DNA of 37,156 nucleotides from Bacteroidia bacterium (GTDB lineage: Bacteria > Bacteroidota > Bacteroidia > J057). A program made the position numbers and the translations under genes. The notes under the pieces are model-generated. The model saw only the letters and a list, made by a program, of their open reading frames with translations, ran no database searches and was not told where the DNA came from. The stretch covers positions 1-37,156 of the forward strand of contig JAUIGE010000052.1 in NCBI GenBank assembly GCA_030430205.1, in the 5' to 3' direction. Shown here in pieces: positions 5,758 through 28,081 of this stretch. The first letter of the stretch is position 1. Each line of letters starts with the position of its first letter.

Positions 5758-6447
5758 ATGAAAAGAATCTCTTCTTCCCTGTACCAAATTTCCCTTGGCA
5801 CTGTCAACGTATTTCTGATTGAAGGAAAGGACCTCACACTTGTCGATACAGGTACAAAGGGCAGCGAAGCCCGGATTTTCAAGGCCATGCAAAAAGGGGG
5901 CAAAGACCCCCAGGATATCAAAAGGATCATCCTTACACATTCCCATCCCGATCATGCGGGTTGCGCCGCATCCCTTTCCGGTCAATTGAACGCCCCCCTC
6001 TATGCGCATCAGGAGGATGCTTTACTCGTGGAGCAAGGCATCGCTGGCAGGCTTCAGAACCAGGTATCACCTGGTCTTTTCCATAAATTTGTTTTTAGCT
6101 TTTTTATCAAAAAAGCCCCCCTTGAAATCAGCCCGGCAAGCGTGCATGAAAGGCTCGCCGATGGCGATACCATTCCCCTGGCAGGTGGCCTGGAAGTCAT
6201 CCATACACCCGGCCATAGCGCCGGACATATTGCGCTTTTGCTAAAAGATGAAGGAGTGCTGATCGCAGGTGACATCTGCGCCAAGCTGATCGGTCTGGGC
6301 CTCAGTACGGTCTATGAAGACCGTGAGTTAGGGATACAAAGTATCCTCAAAGCAGCCAATTACGATTTTGACAAGGCCGTTTTCGGCCATGGTAGCCCGC
6401 TGATGCAATCAGCGAACAGAAAGATAAAGGAAAAATTCAGCTCATAA
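5758..6447 (+). CDS. Metallo-beta-lactamase-fold hydrolase
   Basis: A 229-residue MBL-fold metalloenzyme. The zinc motif HxHxDH is at His61, His63, Asp65 and His66 (LTHSHPDHAG). Further ligands are the His in TPGHSAGH (about residues 151-155), the Asp in IAGDICAK and the His in FGHGSP. The fold is complete, with no extra domain and no signal peptide, so it acts in the cytoplasm. The family includes glyoxalase II-like thioesterases, lactonases and others; nothing here fixes the substrate. The stop codon is followed immediately by the first CCCRAAA heptamer array, and the convergent gene ends 69 bases away. Confidence 0.88.
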   Translation: MKRISSSLYQISLGTVNVFLIEGKDLTLVDTGTKGSEARIFKAMQKGGKDPQDIKRIILTHSHPDHAGCAASLSGQLNAPLYAHQEDALLVEQGIAGRLQNQVSPGLFHKFVFSFFIKKAPLEISPASVHERLADGDTIPLAGGLEVIHTPGHSAGHIALLLKDEGVLIAGDICAKLIGLGLSTVYEDRELGIQSILKAANYDFDKAVFGHGSPLMQSANRKIKEKFSS

Positions 6448-6510
6448 CCCGAAACCCAAAACCCGAAACCCGAAACCCGAAACCCAAAACCCGAAACCCA
6501 AAACCCAAAA
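6448..6510 (+). repeat. CCCRAAA heptamer array 1 (nine units)
   Basis: Exactly nine tandem heptamers, each CCCGAAA or CCCAAAA, in the order G A G G G A G A A. The first unit begins on the base after the TAA stop of the MBL-fold gene. No unit is interrupted. Read as RNA it is pyrimidine/purine-alternating and cannot form a strong hairpin by itself. Confidence 0.95.
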
Positions 6511-6516
6511 CTTCCC

Positions 6517-9874: not shown

Positions 9875-9883
9875 AAATGATTT

Positions 9884-9998
9884 GAGGATGAGTAGATGAG
9901 GGGATGTGAGGATGTGAGGATGAGGGGATGTGAGGATGAGGGGATGTGAGGATGTTTTTAATTTTCGAATCTTCTAATCCCCTAATCCTCTAATCCCC
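9884..9998. repeat. GGATGAG-type array with inverted GGATTAG copy (ilvB-ilvN spacer)
   Basis: Bases 9884-9955 are tandem variants of GAGGATGAG and GGGGATGTGAGG on the plus strand. Bases 9976-9998 carry the inverted form. Arms 9924-9945 and 9977-9998 pair in three 6-base blocks (GGGGAT, GAGGAT, GGGGAT against ATCCCC, ATCCTC, ATCCCC) split by 2-base mismatches, with a 31-base loop. The right arm includes the TAG stop of ilvB and its last codons. Confidence 0.85.
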
Positions 9999-13483: not shown

Positions 13484-13521
13484 TAAAAGAAAATCGGCCG
13501 ATTCTTTTAGGAATGGCCGAT
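13484..13521 (-). terminator. Attenuator terminator in the ilv leader
   Basis: On the minus strand, ATCGGCC-ATTC (13521-13511), loop CTAAAA, then GAAT-C-GGCCGAT (13504-13493) form an 11-bp stem with one bulged C, ended by UUUUCUUUU. It lies 25 bases after the leader-peptide stop and ends 59 bases before ilvD. This is a standard intrinsic terminator placed before the first structural gene. Confidence 0.85.
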
Positions 13522-13547
13522 CAGTAACTTTTATTTATTAGCCATTC
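13511..13547 (-). promoter_or_regulatory. Predicted ilv antiterminator
   Basis: GAATGGC (minus strand 13547-13541) is the exact complement of GCCATTC (13517-13511), the 5' arm of the attenuator terminator. The GAATGGC arm begins inside the leader-peptide stop codon (TGA, 13548-13546). A ribosome stalled in the Val-Ile run leaves it free to pair, and one at the stop covers it. Confidence 0.75.
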
Positions 13548-13608
13548 ATGGGTGGGGAATTAATCCCACAAGCACGATAATTACATTATTTATGACCCAA
13601 AGTAACAT
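13546..13608 (-). CDS. ilv operon leader peptide (branched-chain amino acid sensor)
   Basis: A 20-codon frame on the minus strand, ATG to TGA, encoding MLLWVINNVI followed by IVLVGLIPHP. Twelve of 20 residues are Leu, Val or Ile, with six in a row at residues 9-14 (VIIVLV). It lies upstream of ilvD, followed by an antiterminator and an intrinsic terminator. That is the order of ribosome-mediated attenuators such as ilvL and ivbL of enteric bacteria. It should act as a sensor of charged Ile/Val/Leu-tRNA and probably has no function as a peptide. No ribosome-binding site is obvious, as is common in this phylum. The structure is seen; the regulation is inferred. Confidence 0.8.
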   Translation of the reverse strand: MLLWVINNVIIVLVGLIPHP

Positions 13609-13790: not shown

Positions 13791-14276
13791 ATGAAAAACC
13801 TTGTCGTTTGGAGCCTGATCATTCTGCTTTCCAGCTGCGTTTTTTCACCTCCTGTTTATGCAAATCAAAAAGCATCACATGGCATAGAAAATAAGGGAGA
13901 GGCCATCTCCTTAAGGCATTATCTTTCACAGGAAAAGGAAAAAATCCGCTCCTTTTTCAAAAAGAAAAAGTTTGCGCATCGTCTAAAAGATCAACGGATC
14001 TTAAATGGATTCGCGATTGCATCGCTGGTCAGCGCAGGTCTGTCCAGTATTTTTTTCCTGATTGCGATAGCTGGCACCAGTGGTTTTTTTCCGGTATTAT
14101 GGGTACTGGGGGCTTTAGCAGCCATTGTCTTTGGTATTATAGGCCTGGTACAAATCAGGCGATATTATGATGAATTTCGAGGCAAGGGACTTGCCATCAC
14201 CGGCCTGATCTGGGGCATATCCTCTTTGGTTTTTCCCACTTTGCTTTTTATTATCGTGCTTCTTGCCTTCTTCTGA
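13791..14276 (+). CDS. Small membrane protein with DUF4190-like C-terminal pair of helices
   Basis: A 161-residue exported or membrane protein. Residues 1-24 are a signal segment with a possible lipobox (LLSSC, Cys16). A charged, Lys-rich stretch (residues 45-70) follows. The C-terminal half has three hydrophobic segments (about 75-95, 100-120, 135-160) with the pattern GFAIASLVSAG ... FGIIGLVQIRRY ... GKGLAITGLIWGISSL. This resembles the DUF4190 family, where a G-x-A-I-x-G repeat starts each segment. Function unknown. It converges on namZ, with only four bases between the stops. Confidence 0.75.
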   Translation: MKNLVVWSLIILLSSCVFSPPVYANQKASHGIENKGEAISLRHYLSQEKEKIRSFFKKKKFAHRLKDQRILNGFAIASLVSAGLSSIFFLIAIAGTSGFFPVLWVLGALAAIVFGIIGLVQIRRYYDEFRGKGLAITGLIWGISSLVFPTLLFIIVLLAFF

Positions 14277-17459: not shown

Positions 17460-17470
17460 GGAAGGATGGG

Positions 17471-17575
17471 TTTTGAGTTTTGAGTTTCGGGTTTCGGGTT
17501 TCGGGTTTCGAGTTTCGGGTTTCGGGTTTCGAGTTTCGAGTTTCGGGTTTCGGGTTTCGGGTTTTGAGTTTCGGG
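17471..17575 (-). repeat. CCCRAAA heptamer array 2 (fifteen units)
   Basis: Fifteen uninterrupted heptamers. On the minus strand most are CCCGAAA, with CTCGAAA and CTCAAAA variants. The array begins on the base after the TAA stop of the DUF4834 gene and ends 11 bases before the asparaginase start. Units are 7 bases, so as codons the array would repeat every 7 residues. Confidence 0.95.
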
Positions 17576-17881
17576 TTAAGAACCTCTTATTTCTTCTACT
17601 TCTTCGAAATCCACATCTTCGGCGACTTCTTCGAGGCTGGGGCCTGGACTTTCAGGGCGGGTTTTAGGGATTTTGATCTCCATCTCGCTATCAACGGTAT
17701 GGCGATCGTGGTAGGGATCCTGGCTGTAGTTGCGCTCGTATTGCTGGCTTTGCTCCTCCATGCTCTTCATGGCTTTGTTGACCACTTTTTGTAGCACGAA
17801 AGTGAGAATCTGCTTGCCAAACAAGCGGAAAATCAACCATATTGAAGCAAAGAAAATAAACAGACCGAATAAAAAATTCAT
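17576..17881 (-). CDS. DUF4834 family membrane-anchored protein
   Basis: A 101-residue protein with one N-terminal membrane helix (residues 3-22, FLFGLFIFFASIWLIFRLFG). A basic, amphipathic stretch (ILTFVLQKVVNKAMKSMEEQ) and an acidic tail ending DVDFEEVEEIRGS follow. This layout matches DUF4834, a small family restricted to Bacteroidota with no known function. The acidic tail would face the cytoplasm. It follows bshA-type neighbours on the same strand with a 35-base gap, and its stop is directly followed by heptamer array 2. Confidence 0.8.
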   Translation of the reverse strand: MNFLFGLFIFFASIWLIFRLFGKQILTFVLQKVVNKAMKSMEEQSQQYERNYSQDPYHDRHTVDSEMEIKIPKTRPESPGPSLEEVAEDVDFEEVEEIRGS

Positions 17882-28018: not shown

Positions 28019-28073
28019 TTTGGGTTTTGGGTTTTGGGTTTTGGGTTTTGGGTTTTGGGTTTCGGGTTTCGGG
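28019..28073 (-). repeat. CCCRAAA heptamer array 3 (about eight units)
   Basis: Minus strand: two CCCGAAA units, then five CCCAAAA units and one shortened unit. It lies between the methyltransferase stop and the cytochrome start. An octamer GGATGAG-type array and 4-5 other bases separate it from the stop, so it is one step away from the gene end, unlike arrays 1 and 2. Confidence 0.92.
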
Positions 28074-28081
28074 TTCATCTG

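Follow-up and report, generated by a model that had tools for sequence, protein, structure and literature searches.

A predicted Ile/Val/Leu leader-peptide attenuator upstream of ilvDBNC in a Bacteroidia bacterium and its recurrence at ilvD loci

What controls the ilvDBNC operon of this Bacteroidia bacterium? The original prediction, made for the window studied here (the whole stretch of 37,156 nucleotides), placed a ribosome-mediated attenuator with a branched-chain amino acid leader peptide ahead of ilvD. The operon consists of four genes.

13437-11758, minus strand: ilvD, dihydroxy-acid dehydratase (TIGR00110, 735.6 bits, cut-off 618.15)
11736-9982, minus strand: ilvB, acetolactate synthase large subunit (TIGR00118, 729.7 bits, cut-off 538.35)
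9874-9344, minus strand: ilvN, acetolactate synthase small subunit (TIGR00119, 106.4 bits, cut-off 56.9)
9307-8249, minus strand: ilvC, ketol-acid reductoisomerase (TIGR00465, 306.1 bits, cut-off 226.15)

All four score above the curated cut-offs, and the operon makes the amino acids that match the codons of the leader. The coordinates of ilvD are those of its longest open reading frame; its start is probably ATG 13425, because homologues begin M-N-[RK]-[YH]-S. A tandem 8/24-bp repeat (GATGTGAGGATGAGAGGATGAGGG) lies between ilvB and ilvN (9879-9955), and intergenic tandem arrays of heptamers of the AACCCGA / GGGTTTC / TTTGGGT type are found elsewhere in the window (6446-6511, 17468-17577 and 28019-28075). 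Similar letters also occur near hisG in L166, a locus of the same genome.

The region upstream of ilvD contains the following elements.

13608-13546, minus strand: leader ORF of 20 codons and a TGA stop, translation MLLWVINNVIIVLVGLIPHP
Within the leader ORF, minus strand: candidate regulatory codons Val9-Ile10-Ile11-Val12-Leu13-Val14
13611-13607, minus strand: region 1, GCCAT, ending inside the leader start codon (from the MFE fold)
13547-13541, minus strand: region 2, GAATGGC, antiterminator 5' strand, sharing two bases with the TGA stop (13548-13546)
13517-13511, minus strand: region 3, GCCATTC, 3' strand of the antiterminator and at the same time part of the terminator 5' arm
13522-13492, minus strand: predicted terminator hairpin (regions 3:4), -15.0 kcal/mol, 12 pairs, one bulged C
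13491-13485, minus strand: U-rich tract TTCTTTT, directly after the terminator stem

Translation and a recount bear out the 20-codon leader, in which 12 of the 20 residues are Ile, Val or Leu (four each) and the run VIIVLV occurs. The coordinates likewise confirm that GAATGGC at the leader stop is the exact complement of GCCATTC in the terminator 5' arm. The original prediction put the terminator 59 bases before ilvD, a distance that holds for ATG 13425 and not for the longest ORF, whose ATG 13437 is 48 nt away. Its antiterminator and terminator stand; it left region 1 unmentioned, which we add here. Region 1 complements ATGGC of region 2 and pairs with it in the predicted unoccupied RNA (MFE fold). 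The 141-nt leader folds with -37.5 kcal/mol (z = -4.17), both 1:2 and 3:4 being formed, and none of 200 shuffles is equally stable. The predicted elements are thus laid out as a classical 1:2 / 2:3 / 3:4 attenuator, which region 1 completes.

The same terminator might be used by a metabolite- or tRNA-binding RNA (a T-box, ppGpp or other riboswitch), since T-box and ppGpp riboswitches control ilv genes in other phyla. The abstract of PMC10272879 also mentions ppGpp. In the window, however, Rfam gives no match at gathering score, and the only match at E <= 5 is RT-12 (E 0.13), which is below threshold and on the plus strand. In addition, the leader stop and the stem are about 23 nt apart, which is too little for an aptamer. 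A riboswitch is therefore extremely improbable here.

The elements instead point to a classical ribosome-mediated transcription attenuator, which very probably controls ilvDBNC. With charged Ile-, Val- and Leu-tRNA available, the ribosome would reach the stop codon and cover region 2; regions 3 and 4 would then form the terminator, and transcription would end before ilvD. If any one of them is uncharged, the ribosome would stall in codons 9-14 with its leading edge short of region 2. Regions 2 and 3 would then pair before region 4 has left RNA polymerase, the terminator would come too late, and ilvDBNC would be transcribed. If the leader is not translated, regions 1 and 2 would pair and the terminator would form by default. 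We infer leader translation, termination and the response to starvation at the window from these features.

A ribosome model, in which only the RNA downstream of the ribosome is folded and the edge is set 16 nt after the start of the P-site codon (an assumed footprint), agrees with this geometry. Before region 4 emerges, 2:3 holds 9.0 pairs with the A site at codons 8-17 and 0.2 pairs at codons 19-21. With this assumed footprint size, the ribosome at the stop codon is predicted to cover region 2 and the stalled one is not. In the full-length equilibrium fold of the window leader, the terminator (-15.0 kcal/mol) beats the antiterminator (-8.3 kcal/mol) at every ribosome position, so that a switch there would have to be kinetic; a pause of RNA polymerase would allow it. 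For a relative from the same family (L152), the full-length equilibrium fold is dominated by 2:3 with the A site at codons 11-19 and by 3:4 at codons 20-22.

How far could the window locus have arisen by chance? When the leader segment is shuffled 20,000 times, a perfect 7-nt complement to the terminator arm arises in 201 cases; for the 2:3 duplex, comparison with shuffled region 2 gives p = 0.03. Of the window's 487 small ATG ORFs, 2 have at least seven Ile/Leu/Val in eight codons. Loose matches to a hairpin followed by T are common in the window (50 by our own script), and a simple consensus terminator scan, which apparently permits no bulge, did not list this hairpin. Sites resembling sigma-70 promoters occur around the leader at chance level only, and the Bacteroidota promoter box TANNTTTG is absent from the 3.2 kb around the leader. 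Taken alone, the site moderately excludes chance and is suggestive rather than conclusive. With a single-locus p of about 0.01-0.03, it is the comparison across genomes that makes the attenuator secure.

For this comparison we assembled 144 ilvD loci: the window, 80 loci from named records (the best 80 of at least 596 stretches), the seven other loci of the window's family (13 genomes searched, eight ilvD places, all taken), and the rest of a class sample in which 57 of 295 genomes matched ilvD and all 59 places were used. Some species may occur in both the named and the other set, and loci from relatives do not count as independent. At 130 of the 144 loci the gap is long enough to search (90 nt or more). 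The combined criterion was an ATG-started ORF of 9-60 codons with at least five Ile/Leu/Val in eight codons, and, 10-50 nt after its stop, a hairpin that has a T-rich tail and folds at -9 kcal/mol or below.

Absence of both the ORF and the stem from related genomes was one of the outcomes that, according to the original prediction, would count against it; both are present at 73 of the 144 loci. Five dinucleotide shuffles give 0, 1, 0, 0 and 0 matches, and the reverse complements give 3. With a stricter Ile/Leu/Val density, 63 loci match at six of eight codons, 46 at seven and 25 at eight. Any qualifying terminator is found at 91 of 144 real loci, compared with 5-12 in the shuffles and 39 in the reverse complements; given a terminator, a leader precedes it at 73 of 91 real loci and at 3 of 39 reverse-complement loci. 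Under these criteria 71 loci are without an attenuator, 14 of which lack the 90-nt gap. One locus (L026) has an evident leader and hairpin yet fails. The counted 73 include two loci, L044 (resembling an ATP synthase subunit gene) and L081 (weak), which were kept in the pairing tests and removed for spacing, composition and duplex location (71 loci). A looser scan, which gave 77 of 144, was set aside; it includes chance matches such as L042 and L113, whose frames, judged by eye, resemble the last part of a gene for an ATP synthase subunit.

These counts bear on the simplest alternative, in which an intrinsic terminator simply ends an upstream transcript and lies by chance behind an Ile/Val/Leu-rich frame. 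The moderate improbability of the parts in the window would allow it, as would a second small ORF there with seven of eight Ile/Leu/Val codons, arising by chance or as the antisense of a gene. However, shuffles hardly ever reproduce the combination, and the comparison largely refutes a chance frame. Furthermore, the upstream neighbour (13791-14276, plus strand, no match to an NCBIfam family) points away from the leader and therefore needs no terminator here. We regard this alternative as highly unlikely.

The putative attenuators are spread widely. Matches comprise 47 of the 80 named-record loci and 26 of the 64 remaining loci, and the genomes include Chitinophaga, Flavobacterium, Chryseobacterium, Chryseolinea, Aquimarina, Tenacibaculum, Dokdonia, Pedobacter and Saprospiraceae. 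Within the window's own family only four of eight ilvD loci pass, and the sole genome of the same genus that was searched (G009, 99% complete) has no ilvD match at E <= 1e-100. Seventy-two of the 73 leader peptides are distinct and are therefore not one copied sequence. Ile makes up 25.0%, Val 15.2% and Leu 9.9% of the residues of 71 leaders (1622 in total), and the stop codon lies a median of 25 nt from the stem (interquartile range 22-29). The first gene after the attenuator is ilvD at 32 of the 71 loci and a gene upstream of ilvD at 39, many of which look like a branched-chain aminotransferase gene by length and start (by eye).

An Ignavibacteriae MAG outside Bacteroidia (L089) has an Ile/Val/Leu leader and a terminator before ilvD. 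Records titled Thalassovita, Planktophila and Planctomycetaceae (L012, L029 and L079) carry a Bacteroidota-like ilvD with 65-71% identity to that of the window, and their titles or bins may be wrong.

In the duplex tests, region 2 was represented by stop-proximal windows and region 3 by the terminator arm and loop. Cognate 2:3 duplexes average -13.6 kcal/mol, compared with -9.1 kcal/mol for permuted partners (sd 0.30; the lowest of 10,000 permutations is -10.2). Among the 73 partners compared, the cognate one ranks first at 16 loci and within the top tenth at 43. Cognate 1:2 duplexes average -13.4, compared with -11.5 for permuted ones, and none of 10,000 permutations is as low (73 loci). Against shuffled region 2, the 2:3 duplex reaches p <= 0.05 at 53 of 73 loci and p <= 0.01 at 37; at 20 loci p is above 0.05. 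Cognate antiterminator pairing is thus kept across loci although the sequences differ. At 67 of 71 loci the centre of the best duplex lies no more than 15 nt from the stop codon, but about 76% of non-cognate pairs share this location, which is thus partly a composition effect.

Seven loci of Flavobacterium type (L017, L023, L025, L030, L031, L098 and L101) have a leader beginning MQISI between a leuB-like gene and ilvD. A TACTTTTG box lies just upstream of this leader in L017, L031 and L098, the three inspected. The arrangement is possibly an internal promoter-attenuator.

Do the leaders follow the pathway of the gene behind them? When other residue sets are sought with the same geometry at the 144 ilvD loci, His gives 0 matches, Phe/Tyr/Trp 0, Asn/Lys 4 and Ser/Thr/Ala 10. 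We also sampled 30 hisG loci from 56 matching genomes, 119 genomes of the class having been searched, and required at least three His in eight codons. A His leader is found at 21 of the 30 loci and an Ile/Leu/Val leader at 2; three shuffles give 0, 1 and 0 His leaders, and the reverse complements give 0. Looser criteria gave 24 of 30 and let in at least one chance match (L197); the strict count of 21 is used. Many of the His-leader terminators (L169-L197 and L156) share GGCTTACC.

The genome of the window itself carries further candidate leaders, each with a terminator.

L163, about 2422-2315, minus strand, terminator from 2290: Ile/Val/Leu leader MQNYNSNMNPFNINILGLLLAVVIISVTKRERPFF before ilvE-ilvA, 2:3 duplex -18.1
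L166: His-rich leader MFTQFHHIHHHTTTDSSGG before hisG, 2:3 duplex -12.1
L167: Trp-rich leader MNTFSQNMSFNWWWHTSIPLVGHRRIL before the anthranilate synthase I gene (trpE), 2:3 duplex -15.8
L198: Phe/Tyr/Trp-rich leader MTHFSKQTAWYFCYYFIYQNR before the prephenate dehydratase gene, 2:3 duplex -11.7

The ilvE-ilvA genes are above cut-off for TIGR01122 and TIGR02079. The anthranilate synthase I gene scores 405.5 bits with TIGR00564, below the cut-off of 517.7, and the prephenate dehydratase gene has its best hits below cut-off and PF00800 above it. No leader was found before leuA of the same genome (gap about 60 nt) or at its two aspartokinase loci, L199 and L200, where one chance frame occurs.

These data also bear on a different use of a translated leader, in which ilvD is controlled by translation coupling, mRNA stability or sequence-specific arrest of the nascent chain and not by termination upon tRNA shortage. 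Effects on translation and on transcription are inseparable from sequence alone, and the Flavobacterium loci, with leaders and terminators present, have weak 2:3 pairing (-6.3 to -9.9 kcal/mol, p 0.03-0.10 at the seven loci with MQIS leaders). However, what accompanies the leader from locus to locus is a hairpin with a T tract, far more often than in shuffles, and region 2 is complementary to this hairpin. Leader residues other than Ile, Val and Leu are not conserved, which argues against a specific arrest peptide, and the His leaders at hisG and the Trp leader at trpE indicate that leaders track the pathway and not a motif. We consider this alternative improbable. The attenuation interpretation of the original prediction is supported by the leader content, the terminator, the antiterminator at the stop codon, the agreement with the pathway, and recurrence far above controls.

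Beyond the window, it seems fairly likely that amino-acid operons (branched-chain, His, Trp and probably Phe) across Bacteroidia, and possibly in Ignavibacteria, are generally controlled by classical leader-peptide attenuation that keeps its logic and not its sequence. With 72 of 73 peptides distinct and no Rfam family for them, such leaders are easy to miss. Initiation led by a Shine-Dalgarno sequence is rare in Bacteroidota. If attenuation is general, ribosomes would follow RNA polymerase closely throughout a phylum with this rare mode of initiation, and if such leaders work, transcription and translation would be functionally coupled in these bacteria. Amino-acid regulation in this phylum has received little study, and the candidate element offers a precise, testable control point for one of its biosynthetic operons.

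The enteric ilvGMEDA, ilvBN and leu operons have attenuators with the leader peptides IlvL, IvbL and LeuL. The window resembles them in its short Ile/Val/Leu-rich leader, its mutually exclusive antiterminator and terminator, and the branched-chain operon downstream; it differs in having ilvD as its first gene, a region 2 that overlaps the leader stop, and an antiterminator of only eight pairs. The likeness is one of layout; no relation in leader or RNA sequence was seen. The Corynebacterium ilvB-II motif, as described in the accessible parts of PMC10272879 and PMC11109978, also has an Ile/Leu/Val-rich uORF, an antiterminator and a terminator before an ilv operon, but it is actinobacterial, precedes ilvB and is conserved in sequence within one genus, whereas the leaders and RNAs at ilvD loci nearly all differ. 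The ilvB-OMG and Leptospira ilvB motifs (PMC10272879, in part) likewise have, ahead of ilvB, predicted uORFs in which branched-chain amino acids and Thr are abundant; by that description they are conserved RNA motifs and are not at ilvD. As far as their accessible parts go, these two papers, PMC8632094 and PMC4833913 concern other phyla or other questions. In 2010, leader-peptide systems were known to the authors of PMC2965389 only in Proteobacteria and Actinobacteria, according to the part available. Our literature search by title or abstract found no branched-chain leader before ilvD in Bacteroidota; Lopatovskaya 2010 may list Bacteroidota cases. The statement in the original prediction that attenuators are poorly described in Bacteroidota is fair, not absolute, since the accessible parts of the Flavobacterium psychrophilum transcriptome paper report strong hints of attenuation by leader peptides ahead of amino-acid operons, with structured 5' elements that include pheA and hisG (PMC9723704). 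That species belongs to the same phylum as the window, and the accessible main text names neither ilvD nor a branched-chain leader. Long 5' UTRs of B. thetaiotaomicron contain short ORFs reminiscent of leader peptides (PMC7366714, in part). The comparison gives good support for the view that the putative attenuator of the window is a further case of an already known kind of system, more telling as a pointer to attenuation being widespread among Bacteroidota.
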